Below, piece by piece: positions 28,199 through 42,979 of a DNA stretch of 64,000 bases (positions within the stretch are counted from its first letter, which is position 1; every line of letters starts with the position of its first letter). Under the pieces are notes generated by a model. The model was given only the letters and a program-made list of their open reading frames with translations. It had not been told where the DNA came from and did not search any database. The translations under genes were made by a program, and so were the position numbers. The DNA lies in NCBI RefSeq assembly GCF_010550695.1, contig NZ_JAAGOB010000008.1, positions 124,001 to 188,000 on the forward strand, in the 5' to 3' direction. The DNA comes from Phytoactinopolyspora alkaliphila (GTDB taxonomy: Bacteria; Actinomycetota; Actinomycetes; Jiangellales; Jiangellaceae).

Positions 28199-28206
28199 GT
28201 GTGGGC

Positions 28207-28803
28207 ATGCCTCGTGTGTCACAGGAGCATCGCGACCAGCGTCGCCAGCAGATCCTCACGGCCGCACGCCGGTGCTTCGTCCGCGAGGGTTTCCACCAGA
28301 CCTCCATGGCCGACATCCTCGCCGAAGCACACCTCTCAGCAGGCGCTGTGTACGGCCATTTCAACAGCAAGAACGACATCATCGCGGCCATCGCCGAGGA
28401 CGTCATCGGGCAGATCTCGCAGCTCCTGGAGCCGATCGTCACCCAGGAGCCGACGCCTTCCATCGAGGAGGCCGTCCTCCAGGTGCTGACCGCGACGAAC
28501 GAGATGGCCTTCGGCGAGGATGCCTTCGCCTCGCTGGCCCCACAGGTCTGGGCGGAGGCGCTGCGCAACGACGCGCTGGGCGAGGTGTTCCGCAGGAAGT
28601 ACGTCGGCATCCAGCAGTTGATCGCCCAGCTCGTGACCGCCGAACAGAACAACGGCCGAGTAGCCCCCACTGTCGCGCCGGACGAGATCGCCAAGGTGCT
28701 CCTCAGCGTGATCATGGGGTATATCCTGCAGCGACTGCTGGTCGGCAATGTGGAACCGGAGTCCTACGCGGCCGGTCTAGCCGCGATAGGCCGACCCGGT
28801 TAA
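28207..28803 (+). CDS. TetR-family transcriptional regulator
   Basis: A 198-residue regulator. The N-terminal TetR HTH is clear (RRQQILTAARRCFVREGFHQTSMADILAEAHLSAGAVYGHFNSKNDI). The C-terminal ligand domain is all-helical and not assigned. ATG 28207 is preferred over GTG 28201; neither has a good ribosome binding site. A conserved dyad repeats upstream of this gene, of the plsC/FAD operon and in the divergent 36.1-kb promoter. This makes it the probable regulator of the whole lipid locus. A fatty-acyl or alcohol effector is inferred from context. Confidence 0.88.
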   Translation: MPRVSQEHRDQRRQQILTAARRCFVREGFHQTSMADILAEAHLSAGAVYGHFNSKNDIIAAIAEDVIGQISQLLEPIVTQEPTPSIEEAVLQVLTATNEMAFGEDAFASLAPQVWAEALRNDALGEVFRRKYVGIQQLIAQLVTAEQNNGRVAPTVAPDEIAKVLLSVIMGYILQRLLVGNVEPESYAAGLAAIGRPG

Positions 28804-28831: not shown

Positions 28832-28858
28832 GTTACGAGAACGAAGGTTCGTTTTGCC
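28832..28858. promoter_or_regulatory. TetR operator site 2
   Basis: Contains GAACGAAGGTTCGTTTT, with perfect dyad ACGAA-GG-TTCGT, preceded by GTTACGA. It is almost identical to the site at 36114-36140 over about 24 bases. It lies 30 bases before the GTG of the acyltransferase gene at 28888. Confidence 0.65.
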
Positions 28859-28887: not shown

Positions 28888-29610
28888 GTGCGGGTAGTCG
28901 CGGACTCGAAGGCCGGCCACCGGCGTTTCACTTCGAAGATCATCGCCGTTCTGCGCTTCGTCGTCCAGAGAATGATGCTCAAGCCGCTGGTGTGGTCCCT
29001 CGCCCGCGTCCACGTGCGAACCCACGAGGACGTCAGCCGGATGCCGAAGACGTTCATCGTGGTGTCCAATCACGCGAGCCACCTTGACGCTCCCCTCATC
29101 CTCGGCGCGCTCCCCCGCCGCCTCTCCCGCTACCTGGCCGCCGGCGCGGCGGCCGACTACTTCTTCGAAGTCAGATGGCGCAAGTGGATCACCGCGCTGG
29201 TCTTCAACGCGTTCCCCGTCGACCGCACCAGGTCCGGCTCGCATTCCGGGGTGTCGAAGAAGCTCCTCCAGCGCGGCGTGCCGCTGCTGATCTTCCCCGA
29301 GGGCGGCCGCTCCTCGAACGGCCGGGTCGGCCGGTTCAAGCCCGGAGCCGCCGCCCTGTCGATCGCCTGCGACGTCCCCTGTCTCCCGGTCGCCATCGCC
29401 GGAGCTCACGAAGCGATGCCCCGGGGCCAGTGGTGGCCCTCGCGCGGGCGGCCCCGGGTGGCCGTGTCCATCGGCGCGCCCATCTATCCCAAGCCCGCGG
29501 AAACCTCTGCCGAGTTCACCGAGCGGCTGTCCCAGGCGGTCCGCCGGCTGCACGACGAGATCGGCGCCGGCCAGCACGTCCAGACCTCAGCCCAGAGGAG
29601 GGCCGCATGA
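28888..29610 (+). CDS. PlsC-type lysophospholipid/glycerol-phosphate acyltransferase
   Basis: A 240-residue membrane-associated acyltransferase. It has the catalytic HX4D motif NHASHLD (H62, D67), the following block FNAFPVDRTRSGS, the FPEGG motif at 136-140 that binds phosphate, and PCLPVAIAG. GTG 28888 follows GGGAG. Its stop overlaps the FAD-oxidase gene by ATGA, so it should act with alkyl-DHAP synthase. Acylation of DHAP, which makes the substrate of that enzyme, or of alkyl-glycerol phosphate is the inferred role. Confidence 0.88.
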   Translation: MRVVADSKAGHRRFTSKIIAVLRFVVQRMMLKPLVWSLARVHVRTHEDVSRMPKTFIVVSNHASHLDAPLILGALPRRLSRYLAAGAAADYFFEVRWRKWITALVFNAFPVDRTRSGSHSGVSKKLLQRGVPLLIFPEGGRSSNGRVGRFKPGAAALSIACDVPCLPVAIAGAHEAMPRGQWWPSRGRPRVAVSIGAPIYPKPAETSAEFTERLSQAVRRLHDEIGAGQHVQTSAQRRAA

Positions 29611-31274
29611 CCGGCGTGAAGCACATGAAGTGGTGGGGATGGGGAGACGAGGGCATCGCCTTCGACCACCGCGACAAGCCCGAGTTCGCTCCGTTCGTCG
29701 AGCGCGCCATCGGTCTGGACGTCTCGACGGCCACCGTCCCAGTCCCGGCCTTCGACGAACTCGACCTGCCGGCCTCCCGGGCCGACGAGGCGTTCCACGC
29801 CCAGCTCACCGATATCGTCGGCGGTGAGCACGTGCACACCGACGCGATGGCCAGAGTGGTGCACACGTTCGGCAAGAGCATCCGCGACCTGCTTCGGGTC
29901 CGCTCCGGCACACTGAGCCGCACGCCCGACGTCGTCGTCTACCCGGCTGACGAGCAGCAGGTCCAGCGCATCGTCGAGCTGGCCGTCTCCGCCGACGCCG
30001 TCGTGATCCCGTTCGGCGGCGGGACCAACATCTCCGGCAGCCTCGAGCCCGCCGTCGACGAGGAGCGCGTCGTCATTTCGCTCGACCTCGGCCGCCTGAA
30101 CCGCGTCCTGGAGATCGACGAGGTCTCCGGGCTCGCCCGGGTTCAGGCCGGCATCCAGGGCCCCGACCTGGAGCGGGAGCTCAGCCGGCGCGGCTGGACC
30201 CTCGGGCATTTCCCGGACAGCTTCACCCACTCGACCCTCGGCGGCTGGATCGCCACCCGCTCGTCGGGAATGCAATCCGACAAGTACGGGGACATCGCCG
30301 ACATCGTGCGCGGCCTGCGCATGGTGCGCCCGAACGGCGTCGTCGTGGTCCGTCCGGTGCCCAGCGCGTCCACCGGACCCAGCATCAGGGAGATGATCCT
30401 CGGCAGCGAGGGCCGGCTCGGCGTCATCACCGAGGCCACGGTGCATGTGCACCGGGTGCCGCCGGTGCGCGTCGTGCTCGGCTACCTGTTTCCCACGTGG
30501 GACGCCGGCCTCGCCGCGATGCGGGAGATCGCCGAGAGCGACGCGAGCCCGTCGGTCACCCGGGTCTCCGACGCCCGGGAGACGGCGTTCTCCTTCGCCA
30601 CCCGCACCCGGAGCAAGGGCATCCAGTCCGTCGGAACCAGCGTCTTGATGAAGGTGCTGCAGCGGCGCGGCTGGGATCTGGACGAGATCTGCCTGTCCTT
30701 CATCGGCTACGAGGGCGAAGCCTCACACGTCCGCTACGAGAAGAAGCTCGTCCGGCGCATCGTCCGCCGGCACGGAGGCATCCTCGTCGGCAAGGGGCCG
30801 GGTGCGCTCTACGATCGCAAGAAGTTCGACACCCCGTACATTCGCGACTTCCTTCTGGACCGGGGCGCCGCGGGGGACGTGTCGGAGACCGCCGCGCCGT
30901 GGTCACGCCTGCGGCAGCTGTACGACACGACGATGGCGGCGGCAGGCAAGGCGTACGAGGACATCGGCGTGCAGGGCTGGATCATGTGCCACCTGTCGCA
31001 TTCCTACCATTCCGGCGCGTGCCTGTACTTCACCTTCGCCTTCGTCCACGACGATCAGCCGGTGAAGCAGTACGACCAGGTGAAGTCGGCGATCCAACAG
31101 GCCTTCGTCGATTCCGGGGGCACCTTGTCCCACCACCACGCCGTCGGCGTCGAGCACTCCGCGTGGCTGGCCCAGGATGTCTCGCCCGAAGGCGTCGAGC
31201 TGGTCCGCGCCCTGTTCGACGGCGCCGACCCGAACCGGAACTTCAACCCGGACAAGATCATCCCACCTGCCTAG
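29607..31274 (+). CDS. Alkyldihydroxyacetonephosphate synthase-like FAD enzyme
   Basis: A 555-residue flavoprotein of the VAO/PCMH fold. The FAD domain has PFGGGTNISG (from residue 135), FPDSFTHSTLGGWIATRSSG and DIADIVRGL, close to the pattern of alkyl-DHAP synthase. Residues matching the known ADPS active site are present: Arg413 in TPYIRD, Tyr474 in CLYF and the triple His 509-511 in LSHHHAVG. The enzyme swaps the acyl chain of acyl-DHAP for a fatty alcohol, forming the ether bond. ATG 29607 overlaps plsC and has GGAGG. The nearby acyl reductase can supply the alcohol. A D-lactate-type dehydrogenase is a less likely alternative. Confidence 0.85.
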   Translation: MTGVKHMKWWGWGDEGIAFDHRDKPEFAPFVERAIGLDVSTATVPVPAFDELDLPASRADEAFHAQLTDIVGGEHVHTDAMARVVHTFGKSIRDLLRVRSGTLSRTPDVVVYPADEQQVQRIVELAVSADAVVIPFGGGTNISGSLEPAVDEERVVISLDLGRLNRVLEIDEVSGLARVQAGIQGPDLERELSRRGWTLGHFPDSFTHSTLGGWIATRSSGMQSDKYGDIADIVRGLRMVRPNGVVVVRPVPSASTGPSIREMILGSEGRLGVITEATVHVHRVPPVRVVLGYLFPTWDAGLAAMREIAESDASPSVTRVSDARETAFSFATRTRSKGIQSVGTSVLMKVLQRRGWDLDEICLSFIGYEGEASHVRYEKKLVRRIVRRHGGILVGKGPGALYDRKKFDTPYIRDFLLDRGAAGDVSETAAPWSRLRQLYDTTMAAAGKAYEDIGVQGWIMCHLSHSYHSGACLYFTFAFVHDDQPVKQYDQVKSAIQQAFVDSGGTLSHHHAVGVEHSAWLAQDVSPEGVELVRALFDGADPNRNFNPDKIIPPA

Positions 31275-31369: not shown

Positions 31370-32182
31370 CTAGGTGACCGGCACGCCGCGGTTGCGCATC
31401 GCGTCTTCGACGATGGTCAGACCCTCGAGCCCGGGCATCCGCGCAACGTGGCCGTCGATCTTGCGGATCTCCCGGATGCCGTCCGGGCCGGCGAAGAGGT
31501 GGTTCATCACGTGGACGACCTCCTCGTCGGGCAGGACGCCGGAGCCGACCGGCGCCCAGAATTTGCGCAGGGCGAACCGGGCGAACTTCTGTGCCTTCGT
31601 ACTGCGCTGCAGCCGGTGGCGCGCCTGGCTGGCATAGAAGGCGACATGCTTGGCCTCCTGCTTGGCGATCCGGCGCAGAAGCTCCGCGAGGACCGGGTGC
31701 CCCTGCAGTTCAGCGAGTCGTGTGTAGGCCGCGATGGCCGACCACTCATTCACCGCGCCCCAGATCATGTGGACGGCGATGAAGTCCTTCCCCACGAGAT
31801 TGCCGAGCACCGACTGCTTGACCGGGTCGATGCGGTCCTTCCAGCCGACTTTGAGGCGTCGCGCCTTGAGCCCGTCGAAGTCCACCGTGATGCCGTGCCA
31901 GCCGAGGACGTCGGCCAGCGCCTCACCGTGCCAGAACTCCTCGCGGTTCCACATCGTCATGAACGCGGCGACGTCGTCGTCCTTGTGCGACGGCGTGACC
32001 AGCATGTCGCGCAGATAGCACACGGTGTGGTACTCGATGTCGCACATGTACCGGAGGCTGCGCAGCGTCTCTGGCGGCAGCGGGTCCGTGCGGAAGTCCT
32101 CGAAGGCGAGGTCCTTCCACTGCACGCCCGCGGAGGTCTCGGTGTAGCGGTCGATGTCAAAGGCCACGGGAGCTGCCTTCAC
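31370..32182 (-). CDS. Ferritin-like di-iron protein A, full ligand set
   Basis: About 270 residues, mostly helical. The ligand pattern of a non-haem di-iron enzyme is complete: E50 (CDIEYHT), E82xxH85 (REEFWH), E146 (NEWSA) and E176xxH179 (KQEAKH), the E..ExxH..E..ExxH order of acyl-ACP desaturases and related oxygenases. No membrane segment is seen. GTG 32182 with GGAG upstream overlaps the acyl-reductase gene by 26 bases. The lipid-gene context suggests O2-dependent desaturation or oxidation of an acyl or alkyl chain. An AurF-like N-oxygenase cannot be ruled out from motifs alone. Confidence 0.75.
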   Translation of the reverse strand: MKAAPVAFDIDRYTETSAGVQWKDLAFEDFRTDPLPPETLRSLRYMCDIEYHTVCYLRDMLVTPSHKDDDVAAFMTMWNREEFWHGEALADVLGWHGITVDFDGLKARRLKVGWKDRIDPVKQSVLGNLVGKDFIAVHMIWGAVNEWSAIAAYTRLAELQGHPVLAELLRRIAKQEAKHVAFYASQARHRLQRSTKAQKFARFALRKFWAPVGSGVLPDEEVVHVMNHLFAGPDGIREIRKIDGHVARMPGLEGLTIVEDAMRNRGVPVT

Positions 32183-34487
32183 CCGGCTCCGGCCGGTTGC
32201 CGGTCCACGGCCGCGCCAGCCGGGACAGTCCCGGTAGGCTCGGCCGGCCGGGGCCGGGATCGGCGGTGGGGGTACGCCCCCAGTCCACGATGGTCCACCG
32301 GTGCTTGCGCGCATGCCGGTAGAGCCGGTTGTCCGGGTTGACCGCGGCCGGATGCCCGAGCGTCTGCAGCCAGGCGACGTCGGCGTGGCTGTCCCCGTAG
32401 CCGTAGGAATGCCGCAGGTCCGCTCCGTGCTCCTCCGCGTACTTGGCCAGCCAGGCCGCGCGCGCCTCGTCGACCAGGGGCGGCGCGTCGAGATATCCGG
32501 TCAGCGCGCCGCCGGCCTCGTGCATGCGGCCGGCCACCACGTCGTCGAACATGGGCGCGAGCGGCTCCACCAGCATGTCGATGGAGCCGGTGACCAGAAC
32601 GGTGCGATGCCCGGCGTTGCGGTGTGCCTGGACACGGGCGATGGCGTCCGGGAGGAGCCGCTGGCGGACCGCGCGCCCGAAGCCGTTGAGAGCGTGCCGG
32701 CGGATCTCGTCCGGCGGGAAGCCCTGATAGCGGCGGGCGAACGCACGGATGAACTCACCACGGTCCCGGAGTTCGCTGCGGACGTACCCCGGCATCGACA
32801 CGGCAAGGCTGCCGATCTCCTTCGGCCACCGAGCCGCCGGCATCACGGCACGGCACAGCCAGAGATACTGCTCGATGAGGTTCCAGTCCAGGACGGTTCC
32901 CTCGAGGTCGAACACGGCGAGAGCATCGCCGCGCACCGGGAGCATCCGGTCCGGCCGGGAGGCCGCGGGACGCGACGTGGAGGTCCGGTTCAGGGCGACG
33001 ATCGCCGGGAAGTGCACCTCTTGCAGGTACTCACTCCAGTCGATCGAGCGGACGTCGAATCCGCGCTCGTCGCGAAGTTCCGGCGGGATGGACTCGAGGA
33101 GCTCTCGCGTGCAGGAGTCGTCGAAGACGATCTCCGTTTGCACATAGGGGCGGTACAGATCCGTGAGCTTGCGCAACGACGTGAGGCCCCGCTGGAGCCG
33201 GTGTACGCGATCCGCCCATCCGCGCGAGCGGGCCGTCATTGGCAACCGGGTCAGCACCCAGTCGGCGCTGCTCACCATCGCCACCCGTTGCCGGACGGTA
33301 CGTTCCACCCGCCGGTCGCCGGCCAGCGTCCACTCCGGCACGTCGACCCGGCGGCCGTCGCTGACCAGTGGCGTGCGGACGAAGTACTCGTGCACGTTGC
33401 GGTACATCTCGTGGAAGGCGAGCGGGTTGCTCGCACCAGAGCCGACCTGGAGGTAGCGCGTGCTCCGGGCTTCCGGCGGCGTGGCAGCGGCGGCAAGGAT
33501 GGCGTTGACGACGAAGTCCACCGGAATGATGTCGAGAATGCTGTCCGGAAGGGCGGGGAAGTCTGGGAGCTGCCCGCGCCCGTAGGCCAGGATCAGCGGG
33601 TCGGCCACCTTGAACCCGTCGATCCAGCCCGGGTACGGGTGCCGCAGGGCACTCTCGATGATGGTGGGCCGCAGCACCGAGAGGCGCTGCCCCGCAGCGG
33701 GCCAGAGGTCTTCCGCGGCCCGCTCGGCGAGCGCCTTGGTGAACGTGTAGACGTCCGTCCAGCCCACGCTCTGCGCACGAAGCCGGCCCTGGTCGACTAG
33801 GCGCTCGGTGATCCACTCCTGTCGAGCCAGCTCAGCGGCCCGGGCCACCGCGAGCGGCCCGGCCTTGCCGTGTTCGGCTCGCGCCTTCTCCAGGACCCTC
33901 CGCAGGACGTCAGGCTGCCGGGACGCCGACTCGATGCTCTGCCTTGCCTGCCGCGCCGCCTCGTCCTCCGCACGCCAGTCGACGTCGTGGGTCAGCGAGG
34001 CCTCGGGCGTGATGCCCTTGCGCAACCCGCCGACATACGCCGTCGACACGTGGATCACGTGGGGCGTGGCACCGGCCTCTTGCAGCGCCCGGTACAGGCC
34101 GCGGGCACCACCGACGTTCGTCCCGAACGCCACGTCGATGGGCGAGTCGAACGTGACCGCCGAGGCGCCGTGGATGACCGTGTCGAGGTCTGCCGGAAGG
34201 GCGGGTGGAGACTCCAGGTCACCGGAGATCACCGTGACCCGCTCGCTGACGATCCGGTCCGCCTCGGACGCTCCGACGGCATGCCGCCACGGCCGGAAGG
34301 CGGGCTTGCGCAGCAGCCGGGTCAGCCGGTCTTCGGCGCTCAGGCTGCCGCGGGGCCGGATGATCAGCGAGATCCTGCAGTCCGGGTGGGTGGAGAGCAG
34401 CCGTTCGAGAACGGCTTGCCCCACGAAGCCCGTTGCCCCGGTGAGCAGGATGTGCGTACCGGACAGGCTGCCCCAAGGGGTCGTCAT
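32157..34487 (-). CDS. Fatty acyl-CoA reductase fused to HAD-IB phosphatase-like domain
   Basis: A 776-residue two-domain protein. Residues 10-380 form an extended-SDR, male-sterility-type acyl reductase: GATGFVG (17-23), Ser148 and Y247-x3-K251. This domain reduces fatty acyl-CoA with NADPH to aldehyde or alcohol. Residues about 520-730 form a HAD-IB domain with DLEGT at 527-531, TGS at 633-635 and GDSHAD at 698-703. The usual second Asp of the DxD motif is Glu529, so phosphatase activity is uncertain. It starts four bases after the acyltransferase gene at 34492. It is the likely source of fatty alcohol for the alkyl-DHAP-synthase-like enzyme. Confidence 0.85.
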   Translation of the reverse strand: MTTPWGSLSGTHILLTGATGFVGQAVLERLLSTHPDCRISLIIRPRGSLSAEDRLTRLLRKPAFRPWRHAVGASEADRIVSERVTVISGDLESPPALPADLDTVIHGASAVTFDSPIDVAFGTNVGGARGLYRALQEAGATPHVIHVSTAYVGGLRKGITPEASLTHDVDWRAEDEAARQARQSIESASRQPDVLRRVLEKARAEHGKAGPLAVARAAELARQEWITERLVDQGRLRAQSVGWTDVYTFTKALAERAAEDLWPAAGQRLSVLRPTIIESALRHPYPGWIDGFKVADPLILAYGRGQLPDFPALPDSILDIIPVDFVVNAILAAAATPPEARSTRYLQVGSGASNPLAFHEMYRNVHEYFVRTPLVSDGRRVDVPEWTLAGDRRVERTVRQRVAMVSSADWVLTRLPMTARSRGWADRVHRLQRGLTSLRKLTDLYRPYVQTEIVFDDSCTRELLESIPPELRDERGFDVRSIDWSEYLQEVHFPAIVALNRTSTSRPAASRPDRMLPVRGDALAVFDLEGTVLDWNLIEQYLWLCRAVMPAARWPKEIGSLAVSMPGYVRSELRDRGEFIRAFARRYQGFPPDEIRRHALNGFGRAVRQRLLPDAIARVQAHRNAGHRTVLVTGSIDMLVEPLAPMFDDVVAGRMHEAGGALTGYLDAPPLVDEARAAWLAKYAEEHGADLRHSYGYGDSHADVAWLQTLGHPAAVNPDNRLYRHARKHRWTIVDWGRTPTADPGPGRPSLPGLSRLARPWTGNRPEPGEGSSRGL

Positions 34488-34491
34488 GGTG

Positions 34492-35229
34492 TCACTCCGG
34501 AAGTGGATCGGTGGTGGATTCGACCGGCAGTATCTGGTCGTTCGGGGTGAGCGCCCGGCCGGTCAGGGCGCACGCTTGCCGGACGTGCTCGCGAAGCTGT
34601 TCGCCCAGCGCTCCCGTCCGCTCGCGGACCACATGCTGTCGGCGGGGCCACGGAACCGGGTCGGTGGCGATGGGCTCGCCGAAGACGATGTCGATGGAGC
34701 TGCGCACCCTCGGCAGGCTCCCGTGGGAGGCAGCCGGGGCGCGGACTCCGAGTGCGGCCACCGGCACGATCGGCGCGCCCGTGCACAACGCCATGTACGC
34801 CGCGCCCGGCTTCACCAGAGCGAAGTCTCCGAGCCCGCGGGTTCCCTCGGGATAGACCGCGATCACGCCTCCGCGGTGCAGCACCGCCAGACAGTTCTTT
34901 ACCGCACGCACGTCGCAGGTGGACCGGTCGACCGGGATCTGGCCGATCCAGCGCAGCGCCGACCCGACCAGTCCGGCGAACATCTCCCGCTTCACCAAGG
35001 CGTGGACCGGCCGGCTGGTCACCGAGTACAGCAGCGGACCGTCGAGGATGCCGGTGTGGTTCGACGCGAGAATCACCGGGTCCTCCCGCGGAACCAGGTG
35101 GGCGTGATGAACCCGGACGTTCCAGACAGCGCGCATCAGAATCGCACCCACGGGCCGCATCACCCTGGCCCCCACCGACGACGGCCCCGGGACGTCTCGC
35201 CAATACGTCGACGCCACGCTGAGTTCCAT
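34492..35229 (-). CDS. PlsC-type 1-acylglycerol-3-phosphate acyltransferase (second copy)
   Basis: A 245-residue acyltransferase. It has NHTGILD (H58-x4-D63), IGQIPVDRST, YPEGTR (126-131) and APIVPVAALG, the four blocks of the family. ATG 35229 overlaps the upstream stop as TGATG and has AGAGGA. It differs in sequence from the copy at 28888 and is co-transcribed with the acyl reductase and both di-iron genes. Acylation of the sn-2 position of 1-alkyl-glycerol phosphate is the inferred job. Confidence 0.88.
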   Translation of the reverse strand: MELSVASTYWRDVPGPSSVGARVMRPVGAILMRAVWNVRVHHAHLVPREDPVILASNHTGILDGPLLYSVTSRPVHALVKREMFAGLVGSALRWIGQIPVDRSTCDVRAVKNCLAVLHRGGVIAVYPEGTRGLGDFALVKPGAAYMALCTGAPIVPVAALGVRAPAASHGSLPRVRSSIDIVFGEPIATDPVPWPRRQHVVRERTGALGEQLREHVRQACALTGRALTPNDQILPVESTTDPLPE

Positions 35230-36092
35230 CAGGTTCCTCTCCGCTGAGGCACGCCCGCCGCGACCGCGGCTGCGGCCAGCGTGATGCCGGCCATGCCGGG
35301 AAGCGCCTGGATCCGCCTGTCGAGCTGCTCGACGAGCGCCGGCACCGGGGAGAAGACACGGCCGAAGAAGAACGCGCTCTCGTGCGACGCGTCTCCGGGC
35401 GGATTCATCGGCCACAGCGAGCGCCGCAGCCGCCTCCGGGCGAGGAAGCACGCCAAGCTGGAGCGTCGCAACCGCGCACGTGCCTGCGCCTCGAAGAAGC
35501 GCAGGTGGCGGGCCTTCACCCCGACGAGAGTCGTGATCATGCGGGTCAGCTCCGGGTGATCCTCGAGCCGGGCGATGCGCAGGTAGGCGGCGCGAGTGAT
35601 CCACTCGTCCACAGTACCGGCCGCCATGTGGGTGGCGATGACGTCGTCGCCGAGCGTGTTGTCGACCAGCGCGCGCCTGATCGGTGCGAACCGGTCGTGT
35701 ACACCTCGCCAGATAGCCGCATCGCCGCCTCGGCCGGACCCGGGGCCAGGCGCCTCACGCGCATGGTGCGCGAGCGTGACGTCGAGGGCATCGGCGATCC
35801 AGTACTTCTCAAACGCCCACGTGGTGAGGAACGCGGTGATCCGTGCGTCCTTGTGGGTGGGTGTCACCAGCACGTGCCGGAGGTAGCGCATGGTCGAGCG
35901 CTCCACGTCTCGCACGAAGCTCAGGCACCGCAGGGTGCCGGGCTCCAACGGCCGCCGCTGGTACTCGTCGAGCCTAAGCTCGTCGCGGTGGCTTCCGACC
36001 GCGGTGCGGGCGAATTCGTGAAGGTCGAACTCTGGCGCCTCGTGCTCGTGACGTTCCACCTTGGGAACCGGTCCGCCGAGATCGGTCACCAT
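35229..36092 (-). CDS. Ferritin-like di-iron protein B, paralogue with lost ligands
   Basis: A 287-residue paralogue of the protein at 31370-32182, alignable over YLRHVLVTPTHKD and DEWITRAAY. E64, E163 and H196 correspond to retained ligands. Three others are replaced: E82 to Lys96, H85 to Ile99 and E176 to Lys193 (WAFEKYWI, GVKARH). It therefore should not hold a normal di-iron centre and may be a structural partner of protein A. ATG 36092 has GGAGAG upstream; the frame further upstream is non-coding. It is the first gene of the minus-strand operon, with TetR operator site 3 just upstream. Confidence 0.75.
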   Translation of the reverse strand: MVTDLGGPVPKVERHEHEAPEFDLHEFARTAVGSHRDELRLDEYQRRPLEPGTLRCLSFVRDVERSTMRYLRHVLVTPTHKDARITAFLTTWAFEKYWIADALDVTLAHHAREAPGPGSGRGGDAAIWRGVHDRFAPIRRALVDNTLGDDVIATHMAAGTVDEWITRAAYLRIARLEDHPELTRMITTLVGVKARHLRFFEAQARARLRRSSLACFLARRRLRRSLWPMNPPGDASHESAFFFGRVFSPVPALVEQLDRRIQALPGMAGITLAAAAVAAGVPQRRGT

Positions 36093-36113: not shown

Positions 36114-36140
36114 GTTAAAACGAATCTTCGTTCTCTTAAC
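36114..36140. promoter_or_regulatory. TetR operator site 3 in divergent promoter
   Basis: Contains the dyad ACGAA-TC-TTCGT within outer arms GTTAA and TTAAC. On the minus strand it matches site 28832-28858 over about 24 bases and its TTTTAAC end could be the -10 of the di-iron/PlsC/reductase operon. It also lies about 70 bases before the SDR start on the plus strand, so one site could control both directions. Confidence 0.65.
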
Positions 36141-36207: not shown

Positions 36208-36999
36208 ATGGTGCTGCCAGTGACGACAGCTCTCATCACCGGCGGAACCTCGGGCATCGGACTTGCTTTCGCGCACCGGCTCGCCCGCGAGGGATACGAC
36301 CTGGTCCTCGTGGCGCGCGACGCCGAACGCCTGGAGCGGACCGCGCAGCAGCTCCGTGCCGACTCGGGGGTCAGCGTCGAGACCCTGCAGGCGGACCTCG
36401 CCGACCGATCCGACGTGGCACGCGTCGCCGAACGCGTCTCGTCCGACGACGACCCGGTGGACATGCTGGTCAACAATGCCGGATTCGGCCTACACGCTCC
36501 CCTGGCGTCCACCAACACCTCCGTCCACGAAGTAGCTATCGACGTCATGTGCCGGGCCGTCCTGGTACTGGGTGGGGCGGCGGCGCAAGCCATGGCGTCC
36601 CGGCGACACGGGACCATTATCAACCTCTCCAGCACAGCCGGTTACGTCACCTTGGGCGGCTACTCCGCCATCAAGGCGTGGGTCACCGTGTACTCCGAAG
36701 GGCTGGCCGTGGAACTGCGTGACACCGGCGTCCAGGTCACCGCACTCTGCCCAGGCTGGGTTCACACCGAATTCCATCAGCGGGCCGGGCTGAGCACGTC
36801 GTCGATCCCCTCGCTGCTCTGGACCAACGCCGATCACGTCGTCGACATCTGCCTGCGCGACGTCCGCCGCGGCAAGGTGATCTCGATACCGACGAGGCGA
36901 TTCCGTTTCCTCATGTGGTGGGCGCGCCATCTGCCGCGCAGCGCTATCCGTGCGGTGTCCGCGCGGCTGGTGTCTCGCCGCCGCTCGCCTCTCCCATGA
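36208..36999 (+). CDS. Short-chain dehydrogenase/reductase
   Basis: A 263-residue classical SDR. It has TGGTSGIG (11-18), NNAG (89-92), the catalytic Ser in INLSSTAG (141-142) and Y152-SAI-K156. The C-terminus is basic with a hydrophobic patch (RFLMWWARHLP), as in membrane-associated lipid SDRs. ATG 36208 lacks a strong Shine-Dalgarno, and GTG 36220 is an alternative. In an ether-lipid pathway it could reduce alkyl- or acyl-DHAP to the glycerol phosphate, but many other substrates are possible. Confidence 0.82.
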   Translation: MVLPVTTALITGGTSGIGLAFAHRLAREGYDLVLVARDAERLERTAQQLRADSGVSVETLQADLADRSDVARVAERVSSDDDPVDMLVNNAGFGLHAPLASTNTSVHEVAIDVMCRAVLVLGGAAAQAMASRRHGTIINLSSTAGYVTLGGYSAIKAWVTVYSEGLAVELRDTGVQVTALCPGWVHTEFHQRAGLSTSSIPSLLWTNADHVVDICLRDVRRGKVISIPTRRFRFLMWWARHLPRSAIRAVSARLVSRRRSPLP

Positions 37000-38579: not shown

Positions 38580-38656
<77 letters not shown>

Positions 38657-38746
38657 TAGCTGAACTGCTCGAATGGCCGAGGAGTTATCCACGGGCGACC
38701 GTTCGTGGCATGGCCCATGGCATGAGTTGCGCGCTACTGTTCGTTC

Positions 38747-40111
38747 ATGGCACGAGCGGACGGCCGCACTCGCGGCAACATCGAAGAGCTGCCGAGCGGC
38801 GGCTACCGCGTGCGGGTCTACGCCGGATTAGACCCCTTGACCAAGCGGCCTCACTATCTCCGCGAGACAGTGCCGGCCGGCCCCCGAGCCCGCCGAGAAG
38901 CGGAAAGGTCTCGGACACGATTACTTGCCCAGATCGACGAACGCAAGAACCCCCGCACCAATGCCACCATCAACCAGCTGATGGATCACTGGTTGGATGT
39001 GCTTGACGTAGACACGTCGACCAAACGCGGCTACGTCAACAAGATCAACAAGCACATCCGGCCAAACCTCGGCAACATTGCCGTCGGCAAGGTCGATGTC
39101 GAACTGCTGGACTTGTTCTACGCGCAGCTCAAGAAATGCCGCGACCATTGCCACGGGCGACGCTATGTTCAACATCGCACGGCGCACAACCACGTGTGCG
39201 ACGAACATGTGGACTCACGTTGTGAACCGCCGCAACCGGGCAGATGCCGTGCCTGCAAGAGAGCCTGTCGCGAGCACCGATGCAAGGGCCTGGCGGATTC
39301 GACTGTTCGGCAGATCCATTGGATCCTCAGTGGAGCACTCAGTCGAGCGGTTCGCTGGGGCTGGATCGGCGTCAACCCGGCCGACCATGCTGAGCCGCCA
39401 TCTTTGCCTCACCCCGATCCGCAGCCGCCGTCGCCCACCGAAGCCGCGAGAATCGTCAACGACTCTTGGGCGCACGACCCCGAATGGGGCGCACTGATCT
39501 GGATCACCATGACCAGCGGTGCCCGACGAGCCGAGATGTGCGCTCTACGGATACGGCACTTTGACGACGAGAACGGAGTCTTGACCCTTGGGCGCGCCAT
39601 CTACAAGGACGACAACGGCGAACTCCAAGAGAAGGACACCAAGACTCATCAGCAGCGCCGTGTCGTGCTGGACCCGGAGAGCTGCGATGTTCTCCGCGAG
39701 CACATCAACCGCCTTCGAGCGCGCGTGAAGAAGCTAGACATCGACCTATCTCCCGACGCCTACCTCTTCTCGCCCGCACCAGATTGCCGCGTGGCGCGAA
39801 ACCCCGACGCCATCACCCGGCGGTACGACCGGATGGCCGAGCGCCTCGGCATTAAGACCACGTTCCACCGTCTCCGCCACTACTCGGCGACCGAACTCAT
39901 CCTCGCAGGCGTCAATGTCAGAGCCGTTGCTGGCCGCCTCGGCCACGGGGGCGGCGGAGCCACAACGCTCCGTGTCTACGCCGCATGGACCTCTGAAGCC
40001 GATCAACGCGCGGCAGCAGCGCTTTCGGCCCGCATGCCTCCGCGTCCGGATTCGAAGAGCGGGAAGCCGCCCGAAACTATCGACAAGTCGAACGCTGAGC
40101 CGGCGGATTAA
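38747..40111 (+). CDS. Tyrosine site-specific integrase
   Basis: A 454-residue phage-type integrase. Catalytic residues are present: R260 (SGARRAEM), H374-RL-R377, H400 (GRLGH) and Tyr411. The core-binding domain contains an insertion (residues about 131-179) with eight cysteines and several histidines, probably a zinc-binding module. ATG 38747 lies 90 bases downstream of the tRNA, the usual layout for elements inserted in tRNA 3' ends. It would catalyse integration and, with an excisionase, excision. Confidence 0.94.
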   Translation: MARADGRTRGNIEELPSGGYRVRVYAGLDPLTKRPHYLRETVPAGPRARREAERSRTRLLAQIDERKNPRTNATINQLMDHWLDVLDVDTSTKRGYVNKINKHIRPNLGNIAVGKVDVELLDLFYAQLKKCRDHCHGRRYVQHRTAHNHVCDEHVDSRCEPPQPGRCRACKRACREHRCKGLADSTVRQIHWILSGALSRAVRWGWIGVNPADHAEPPSLPHPDPQPPSPTEAARIVNDSWAHDPEWGALIWITMTSGARRAEMCALRIRHFDDENGVLTLGRAIYKDDNGELQEKDTKTHQQRRVVLDPESCDVLREHINRLRARVKKLDIDLSPDAYLFSPAPDCRVARNPDAITRRYDRMAERLGIKTTFHRLRHYSATELILAGVNVRAVAGRLGHGGGGATTLRVYAAWTSEADQRAAAALSARMPPRPDSKSGKPPETIDKSNAEPAD

Positions 40112-40495
40112 AGGCCGCAGAACCACACCTCAAACAGCTTCTACCACCAACAACAGTAACGCTAAGGCCCACACCACGCACCAAAAACCACACCCGTTGA
40201 CTCCATTTGGCACCACGAATGACACCACGCAGCGCCGACCAGACGAGCCGTGATCAAGCTGAGCCACTTGCCATCCTGCGGGCAAGGCTCATGGTCCAGA
40301 CCGGCCCGCTGCCCGACCCGGTCCCGCCCCCCGCCTACAGCAGGCGCGTGGCTGTGGAGTGACGGATCGGGTGTGGGGTGACGATGGTCTTGTGAAGCTC
40401 TGCCCGCTCGGCCTCCTTGCTTGCCACACTCATTGCGACATTCTCCCATCATGTGCCGACGAAATCCCGAATTCTCGGGCCGCGCGCCGGGTCGA
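40112..40495. other. Non-coding interval after the integrase
   Basis: About 384 bases between the integrase and the convergently placed DUF262 gene. No convincing reading frame, RNA gene or strong hairpin was seen. It may hold terminators for both genes. Confidence 0.4.
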
Positions 40496-42979
40496 TCAAC
40501 TCGCCGAGGCGTCGGTGGATTCGATGCTGGCGGCTCCAACTGCCTCGAGCACGCGCACGGAGCGCCATGCCGCGGCGGTGTCCGGCGTCATCCGGTAGTG
40601 CCAGCGGCCGTCGTACTCGATGAACTCGATCGGCGGGTTCGATCGCTCGAAGTCGTTGTAGATCTTGCTGGCCATCGCGCCAGTTACCTCGGCGACCTGT
40701 TCAGGGCTCAAGCCGACGACCGCGAAGTCTGGCCCGGTGAGCAGTTCGTCGGGTCGTTCGGCGGCCACGTGGTCGAGCAGCCGCAGGGTGAGTTCAGCCG
40801 TGCCGGCGGCATAGTCGGCGAGATCTTCCTCGTTCCACTCGATTCGAGGCAGCGCAGCCGTCCAGTGCGCGTCTTTGGGCTTCTCGCCGCGGAAGGCCGC
40901 ACGAACATCGATCAACCGACGGCCGTCAGGAAGGCTCCAGAAGGTCCAACCGTTCGTCACGCTGCCCTTGACGTGACGGCCAGCCCCAGATGGTGACCCG
41001 AACAGCTGCCCGTCTACCTCGAGCATGCCGTCGTCACGCACCAGGGCTTGCTTCGACGTCCAACTTCCCTGCCGCGGGGTGAGCAGTGTGCCGGGTTCGA
41101 GGAGTCCGGCCGCCACGAGGTCCTTGACCTCGACCCAGTCGTGGCCCTTGTCCCGCGGATCGACAACGTGGCCGGTGTGCCCCTCTGGCACCGGCCACAC
41201 GCTCAAGAGCACGTCGATGAGCTGGCCACTCCGGGCGTCGATCGTGTCCTCGGTCCACCCGCCGTCGGCCGCCTGGCTGAGCAACCGGCTGTTCAACAGC
41301 AATGTGTCGTGATCGCGCAGCGCCTCCCGCTTCACGTTCCAGGCCGAATTCGACACTTTCGAGTTCAACGAGCTCGTCAGCAGGGTCAGGTTGCCGAGGC
41401 GATGGACGTGGGCACCGCGCTCGATCTCGGCCTCGAGCCCGTCAACGGGCCAGTTGTCCTGCCACTTCTGCGGGAGAACGTGCTCGATCGGGTAGCCACG
41501 TCGGGGGACCTGCGGCTGATTTGTGCCGCGGCGGAACTCGTTCTCTACCGCCTCAAGGAAGAGCCGGAGTCGCGCCACCTTGAACCGTCGATAGGCGGCC
41601 TCGTCGGTGAGCGCGGCGCGGATCTCGTCGTCACCCGGCCAGTAGGTGCTGGACACGTTGAGTCGGGCGAGATGACCGCGGACCCGATCAACCAACTCCG
41701 ACGCGGGAGCGTCCCCATGGATCCTGATGATCTCGGCAACGACGCGGCCCAGGTCCGACGTCGTCAGCCGGAGGAACATCCGGCGCATGATCCAGCTCTC
41801 TGCCACCGCCACCACGTCGTTGATGACGTCGCTGGGGAGGGTGCGCTCTGGCTCGTGAAGCCAGATCAGCAAGGGCTTCAGCAGCTCCAGCTCGCTGGCC
41901 TTCATCCGGTAGATGGACATTTCGACGCCAGTAAGCTGCCGATCCTTGTCGTCGGCAGCCACAGTCCACGACTCGTAGAGGTCGGCCTGTCGCTTGATCG
42001 TCGGGAGCAGATCACCCATCTTCTGTCCGGCGTCGAGCTCGACGTAGGCCTTGAACCGAGTGAAGGTCTGTTGCGGGCTGATCTCCTCGCCAAGACGCGA
42101 GGCAAGCCACTGGTTGAGGAAGAGCGAGCTACGGCTTACGCGGTAGCGACCAACGCTGACTTCCGTCTCCCAGAACTTCGTGTCGAATGGCCAGTCCTCG
42201 GCGTATGCGCGACGAGTGTCGGCACCGTCTGCGGCCAGACGCTGGAAGACGAAGTTCTTGATCAGGTCGGCCGCGGTGAGAGGCGTGCCGCGAGCGTTGA
42301 GCGTCTCGAAGATCTCTTGCGAGTTCTCAGTAGCTGTCAGGTTGATCGCGACCAGCTGCAGCCCGCTCGTGAGCACGGCAACAAGCGCGTTGGCTCGGGC
42401 GGGGTAGGCGTCATCTTCCAAGTCACCTAGCCACGTAGCGACGGCGTCGGTGAAGTATGCATGAGCTCGAGCGATCCTCGAGGACGCGTGCTTCAGCTCG
42501 TCGTGATCGACAGGCGGTTGAGCATCCATCACCTCGTCGAATGCCGCGTGGTCGCGGTTGGTGTGGCGGATCTTGAGGCGTGACTCGCCACGGGGCACGA
42601 AGGTGGCCTGGTTGTGCGTCAGGCTTTCGAGCTGGCCAGCGAGCGTGTCGAGCCCTGCCGACTCGAGAACGGATGCTGCGGCATCCATCACAACCTGCAG
42701 AGTGGTGAGCCGCTGCTGCCCGTCGATGATGTTGCTGGCCTGCATGTTGCCGAGCTGCCCGTCGTGGGCCTGGACGACCACCGCCCCGAGGAAATGAGTC
42801 GCCGACGAGAAGGGTTCGCGGAGCCGCACTTCAGTCAGACGCCGGATGTCGCTCCATAGTGGTGCCCACTGCTCCTCTTGCTCCCACACGTATGGCCGCT
42901 GGAAGAGCGGCACGACGAGTTGTTGCGGAAGGCTGAAGATCTGCATCGGCGTACGGACATTGGTCTCCACGGATGCCAT
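40496..42979 (-). CDS. DUF262/DUF1524 GmrSD-like endonuclease with RAMA domain
   Basis: An 827-residue protein that looks like fused GmrS and GmrD. The N-terminal DUF262 part has LFQRPYVW (26-32) and NIIDGQQRLTTLQVV, the nucleotide-using region. The middle carries DUF1524/HNH motifs (GYPIEHVLPQKWQDNW, HRLGNLTLLTSSLNSKVSN). A RAMA-like domain (LVAAGLLEPGTLLTPRQGSW, GSVTNGWTFWSLPDGR) follows near residues 610-690. Such proteins restrict DNA with modified bases (type IV). ATG 42979 is the chosen start. It is the first cargo gene after the integrase. Confidence 0.85.
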   Translation of the reverse strand: MASVETNVRTPMQIFSLPQQLVVPLFQRPYVWEQEEQWAPLWSDIRRLTEVRLREPFSSATHFLGAVVVQAHDGQLGNMQASNIIDGQQRLTTLQVVMDAAASVLESAGLDTLAGQLESLTHNQATFVPRGESRLKIRHTNRDHAAFDEVMDAQPPVDHDELKHASSRIARAHAYFTDAVATWLGDLEDDAYPARANALVAVLTSGLQLVAINLTATENSQEIFETLNARGTPLTAADLIKNFVFQRLAADGADTRRAYAEDWPFDTKFWETEVSVGRYRVSRSSLFLNQWLASRLGEEISPQQTFTRFKAYVELDAGQKMGDLLPTIKRQADLYESWTVAADDKDRQLTGVEMSIYRMKASELELLKPLLIWLHEPERTLPSDVINDVVAVAESWIMRRMFLRLTTSDLGRVVAEIIRIHGDAPASELVDRVRGHLARLNVSSTYWPGDDEIRAALTDEAAYRRFKVARLRLFLEAVENEFRRGTNQPQVPRRGYPIEHVLPQKWQDNWPVDGLEAEIERGAHVHRLGNLTLLTSSLNSKVSNSAWNVKREALRDHDTLLLNSRLLSQAADGGWTEDTIDARSGQLIDVLLSVWPVPEGHTGHVVDPRDKGHDWVEVKDLVAAGLLEPGTLLTPRQGSWTSKQALVRDDGMLEVDGQLFGSPSGAGRHVKGSVTNGWTFWSLPDGRRLIDVRAAFRGEKPKDAHWTAALPRIEWNEEDLADYAAGTAELTLRLLDHVAAERPDELLTGPDFAVVGLSPEQVAEVTGAMASKIYNDFERSNPPIEFIEYDGRWHYRMTPDTAAAWRSVRVLEAVGAASIESTDASAS

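Follow-up and report, generated by a model that had tools for sequence, protein, structure and literature searches.

The locus

The window analysed here is a single stretch of 64,000 nucleotides from the genome of Phytoactinopolyspora alkaliphila. The features at issue, in window positions, are as follows.

28201-28803, plus strand: TetR-family regulator (PF00440, 1e-15)
28840-28853: palindrome AACGAAGGTTCGTT, an exact AACGAANNTTCGTT site; candidate TetR operator before AT2-AGPS
28888-29610, plus strand: AT2, PlsC-type acyltransferase (PF01553), candidate DHAP acyltransferase
29607-31274, plus strand: AGPS, alkyl-DHAP synthase homologue (matches to 2uuu and 4bby; LSHHHAVG kept)
31370-32167, minus strand: protein A, acyl-ACP-desaturase-like di-iron protein of 265 residues (weak PF02915 and PF03405 matches, ligands, predicted fold)
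32157-34487, minus strand: FAR, NAD_binding_4/Sterile fatty acyl reductase with a fused HAD-IB phosphatase domain (domain matches)
34492-35229, minus strand: AT, PlsC-type acyltransferase (PF01553, 3e-21)
35229-36092, minus strand: protein B, paralogue of A without the metal site, 287 residues (homology to A, ligand alignment)
36119-36132: palindrome AACGAATCTTCGTT between B and SDR, the second exact AACGAANNTTCGTT site
36220-36999 (start codon approximate), plus strand: SDR, short-chain dehydrogenase (PF00106, 1.6e-43)

On the minus strand the order is B-AT-FAR-A, with overlaps between B and AT and between FAR and A, and a gap of 4 bases between AT and FAR; packing this tight agrees with the preliminary description, which had placed A, B, the acyl reductase and the acyltransferase in one operon. 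SDR is divergent from B. The AT gene, which sits between B and FAR, is missing there in the four genomes of the same genus that were examined. AGPS matches solved alkyl-DHAP synthases (2uuu, E 1.6e-123; 4bby, E 1.2e-92), and its sequence allows it to be assigned with confidence as a homologue of these enzymes; SDR is a candidate acyl/alkyl-DHAP reductase. With a DHAP acyltransferase-like protein, an alkyl-DHAP synthase, a reductase and a fatty acyl reductase, the surroundings of A and B are an alkyl-ether lipid cluster.

Across the 5.5-Mb genome the exact AACGAANNTTCGTT sequence has two sites only, one separating TetR from AT2 and the other B from SDR, and the palindrome lies near TetR/B in relatives as well. 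This placement, at both operons and in relatives, indicates that one regulator probably serves both arms of the cluster; the TetR protein may be that regulator, acting at both sites. A different conserved palindrome, ACGCTACGG...CGTAGCGT, is found about 60-140 bases before B in the Microbacteriaceae loci L005-L008, L012 and L014. Beyond SDR, at 38580-42979, a tRNA-Met gene precedes a phage-type integrase (38747-40111) and then a GmrSD-type restriction protein (40496-42979, minus strand), probably an integrated element with defence cargo.

Metal ligands of A and B

The likeliest start of A is the GTG at 32167, with an alternative GTG at 32182; B runs from ATG 36092 to TGA 35229. The two proteins can be aligned over 253 residues with 33% identity (E 6e-45), in keeping with the earlier view that B matches A along its length. 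Numbered from GTG 32167, the six ligands of A (EEHEEH) are E45, E77xxH80, E141 and E171xxH174; they had previously been given as E50, E82, H85, E146, E176 and H179, five higher because the count began at the upstream GTG. B has E64, K96, I99, E163, K193 and H196 at these positions (EKIEKH), and the lysine, isoleucine and lysine first noted at three of them are therefore upheld.

Both patterns extend well beyond this genome. A scan with A of a genome collection holding one genome per species (84,980 species) returned 80 loci, and EEHEEH is present in A at every one. Among 91 aligned B sequences – the non-B rows L129, L153 and L154, with their columns, having been taken out by hand – none has an intact metal site: B homologues always lack the full set of ligands, an outcome in favour of the original reading. 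The glutamate at position 1 is invariably retained. Position 2, a glutamate in A, is lysine or arginine in 88 of the 91 (glutamine in 2, glutamate in 1); position 3, a histidine in A, is isoleucine, valine, leucine, methionine or threonine in all 91 and never histidine; position 4 is often glutamate or aspartate; position 5, again a glutamate in A, is lysine or arginine in 87; and position 6 is histidine or glutamine. That the losses return in all 91 homologues shows that they are not due to chance; the loss of ligands is ancient and under selection.

Lost ligands and faster divergence might also be read as signs that B is a functionless duplicate in decay. This is highly improbable: reading frames are open across several families, B is always beside A (Streptomyces included), and E64, K96, W92, T77 and H80, among other residues, are nearly invariant.

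Co-occurrence of A and B

B lies beside A in 79 of the 79 A-scan loci that have the flank; at the sole remaining locus (L042) the contig stops just upstream of A, within FAR. An unbiased scan with a B profile, covering 394 class-level genomes, found the A/B family in 40, and all 12 that bear B carry A within about 3 kb of it. The expectation that B always occurs with A is thus borne out at the level of both loci and genomes, and its converse fails. The remaining family-positive genomes have A alone, and those examined all keep the ligands apart from L129 and L132, the latter a fragment. When 396 phylum-level genomes were scanned with an A profile, other classes yielded A-like proteins that stand alone and are ligand-intact; B was never recovered by itself. 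Ligand-intact A stands alone in Jiangella-type genomes, in Streptomyces and in other actinobacterial classes, from which it follows that A, as a family, is not in need of B. Neither the loci nor the genome scans contained a B that stands alone with a full ligand set. The original reading of the pair as an active and an inactive twin accordingly stands in part: B has lost its ligands and is never seen without A, but A is found without B.

Two proteins were considered as B and rejected. The first, L126, has the top B-profile score but full ligands, and groups among solo A. The second, L129, is solo A-like and falls outside the B clade; in this protein (L129:8622-9389, genome G197) the first ligand motifs are damaged.

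Divergence and possible co-adaptation

In the tree B forms one clade (support 100/100). Paired A forms a separate clade whose support (84/60) is not firm, and its sister group is the Jiangella-type solo A. The tree uniting B with paired A, as a late emergence of B from paired A would require, was rejected (AU p 0.005), although the long branches of B may bias this result. The duplication looks older than the split of paired A from Jiangella-type solo A. The divergence rate of B is about 2.8 times that of A.

The sole sign of co-adaptation between A and B is a hint from one residue of paired A. Arg75, two residues ahead of the ligand E77, is present in 84 of 85 paired A sequences and in 0 of 42 solo A, where the position is methionine or valine (14 Jiangella-type sequences) or tyrosine or phenylalanine (the 28 others); its counterpart in B is phenylalanine or tyrosine. 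Tree correlation is not specific: r is 0.87 for A-B, against 0.86 for A-FAR and 0.90 for B-FAR, and since A and B correlate no better with each other than either does with FAR, it gives no specific support for contact between them.

These data bear upon whether B is a subunit of A or a separate protein that has put the fold to another use, such as the binding of lipid, a carrier protein or a regulator. Independence would sit well with the fast divergence of B, with a conserved block peculiar to it (residues 64-101 of B) and with the position of FAR, which separates B from A in most loci. It sits poorly with a dependence on A that is strict and not mutual, with the loci in which B directly adjoins A where other cluster genes are gone, and with the confinement of Arg75 to paired A. 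We consider an independent B unlikely.

Fold and family membership

Predicted structures were obtained with good confidence (pLDDT 89 for A, 88 for B). The best match to the model of A is castor stearoyl-ACP desaturase (Z 18.9, 3.3 A, 241 residues), with further matches to DesA2 (Z 16.4) and to the R2-like ligand-binding oxidase R2lox (Z 15.6); B matches the same structural classes more weakly. By predicted fold A is thus closest to the acyl-ACP desaturases, and it has their six-ligand di-iron layout; B has a weak structural match and lacks the ligands. Foldseek E-values are weak, so that the assignment is one of fold class and not of family. A scores 17.9 bits against PF03405 (FA_desaturase_2), below the curated cut-off of 22.7, and B has no match to that profile. 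An AurF-type N-oxygenase was rejected, PF11583 having no match anywhere in the genome, and neither A nor B matches PF10520.

Linkage to ether-lipid genes

Of the 80 loci, 69 have a linked FAR and about 66 a linked AGPS. Across the 394-genome scan FAR is present in 34 of 40 A-family genomes and 41 of 354 others; by genus the figures are 13 of 15 and 14 of 122 (p 3e-9, relatedness not corrected). Close AGPS homologues are found in about 21 of the 40 A-family genomes, as against 34 for FAR.

The association is not absolute in either direction. From ten A/B genomes (Agromyces, Leifsonia, Glaciibacter) both FAR and a close AGPS homologue are missing, which indicates a use for A/B outside the ether-lipid pathway there and makes its substrate uncertain. 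Conversely, a close relative, G019 (locus L166), retains AGPS-AT2-SDR/FAR-AT with no A or B, and G038 and its kin, of another genus, have AGPS without A/B; A/B is therefore dispensable for alkyl-ether synthesis. An alkyl-ether set without A/B fits a tailoring role, and leaves the reaction unfixed. Genes for a molybdopterin oxidoreductase and for a luciferase-like protein follow the retained set in L166. Clustering of the neighbours of solo-A and A/B-only loci gave no gene conserved alongside in all. A LarA-like (Lar_N) gene and a PlsC acyltransferase lie between FAR and A in Subtercola (L038:7596-9856) and next to A in a Jiangellaceae genome without AGPS (L117:8962-11966).

On balance we favour a reading in which A has in B a partner subunit without metal, and A/B tailors the chains of ether lipids. 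A would be the catalytic subunit and B its metal-free sister in one soluble, O2-dependent enzyme of the acyl-ACP desaturase/R2 class. Two of the four glutamate ligands have become basic in B (usually lysine) and one histidine aliphatic. By simple count of charge, four glutamates and two Fe(II) would leave the site of A neutral, as two glutamates and two lysines would that of B; neutrality without metal suggests that the four-helix core of B can stay folded. Most simply, B would take the place of one half of an ancestral homodimer, there stabilising A or shaping its face toward substrate or electron donor. In the pathway AT2 would acylate DHAP, FAR supply the fatty alcohol, AGPS swap acyl for alkyl and SDR reduce the ketone; A/B, the only oxygen-type enzyme of the conserved block, would then tailor the chain.

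The closer tracking of FAR than of AGPS raises another reading, namely that A is no desaturase and acts as an oxygenase or deformylase on the product of FAR, a fatty aldehyde or alcohol, with B as helper. The AGPS-less genome with locus L117 (G090), in which A is near FAR and an acyltransferase, would suit such an activity. The ten A/B genomes without FAR would not, and the closest fold is that of a desaturase, although fold leaves the reaction unfixed; we think this reading quite unlikely.

A possible link to plasmalogens

Plasmalogens yield dimethylacetals upon methanolysis. Subtercola vilae DB165, whose genome is the source of locus L043, has 17% iso-16:0 dimethylacetal, and dimethylacetals are substantial in three further Subtercola species; a little is mentioned for Agreia, and none for Frondihabitans (PMC5945732). 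For other Microbacteriaceae the open literature on dimethylacetals gave only this Subtercola paper. The lipids of Subtercola, dimethylacetals included, are almost wholly saturated iso and anteiso chains (PMC5945732). With chains otherwise saturated, A/B is the natural candidate for the vinyl-ether step.

The known aerobic enzyme for this step, CarF, has been reported chiefly in myxobacteria, in Leptospira and in some Alphaproteobacteria (PMC9131029). Its profile, PF10520, matched 0 of 32 of the genomes, and no control genome either; PF09989 (PlsA-type) matched 0 of 11 genomes, while controls did match.

The saturation of these lipids also tells against A/B as an ordinary desaturase of acyl-ACP or acyl-CoA which, with B as helper, places a mid-chain double bond before the chain enters ether lipids. 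Acyl-ACP desaturases are nearest to A in fold, and this activity would account for the genomes that have A/B but neither AGPS nor FAR; a general fatty-acid desaturase, however, need not track FAR as the A family does. This too appears unlikely. For the tailoring enzyme that we favour, the likeliest reaction, though still less probable than not, would be a 1'-dehydrogenation converting the alkyl ether into the vinyl ether that plasmalogens carry. We put forward tentatively, as a possibility, that A/B is a soluble, heterodimeric, O2-dependent plasmanyl (1'-alkyl ether) desaturase, unrelated to CarF/TMEM189, in whose partner subunit two irons have given way to two lysines.

Comparison with known systems

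Acyl-ACP desaturases such as the castor enzyme and DesA2 share with A the nearest fold and an identical six-ligand layout, but at 14-19% identity and with a sub-cut-off PF03405 score. They are homodimeric and, to our knowledge, have no obligate metal-less twin. In the bacterial multicomponent monooxygenase hydroxylases, paralogous active alpha and ligand-less beta subunits are encoded in one operon, as are A and B; unlike A/B these hydroxylases form large multicomponent complexes acting on other substrates, and the structural match of A to one of them (2inp_D, Z 15.0) is distant.

Yeast Rnr4 carries lysine or arginine in place of ligands, a parallel to B. Rnr2 and Rnr4 are an active di-iron subunit and a paralogue without the activity residues, joined as a heterodimer (PMC3161108). 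As in pairs of this type, the inactive paralogue of A/B is ligand-less family-wide and always found with the active member. Rnr2/Rnr4 nevertheless belong to the R2 fold family and another pathway, and their heterodimer is proven where that of A/B is inferred. The A/B set offers a large and clean case of a metal enzyme evolving a metal-less partner, with lysine replacing the charge of the metal.

The reaction proposed for A/B, vinyl-ether formation after AGPS and FAR, is that of the plasmanyl desaturase CarF/TMEM189, yet CarF is a membrane histidine-box protein. In myxobacteria the elb and MXAN_1676-1674 operons group FAR, acyltransferase and AGPS functions as here, though with a multidomain ElbD where the A/B cluster has separate genes; the accessible portions of their descriptions mention no A/B-like pair. 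Bacterial aerobic plasmalogen synthesis has been described mainly for myxobacteria with CarF, while Subtercola and its relatives form dimethylacetals of the plasmalogen type without a known desaturase. The present cluster brings the enzymes of alkyl-ether synthesis together with a pair that could supply the missing aerobic step; as a vinyl-ether enzyme A/B would be a good candidate for that step in aerobic actinobacteria, which keep an iron enzyme and its lysine-substituted twin within an ether-lipid gene cluster.
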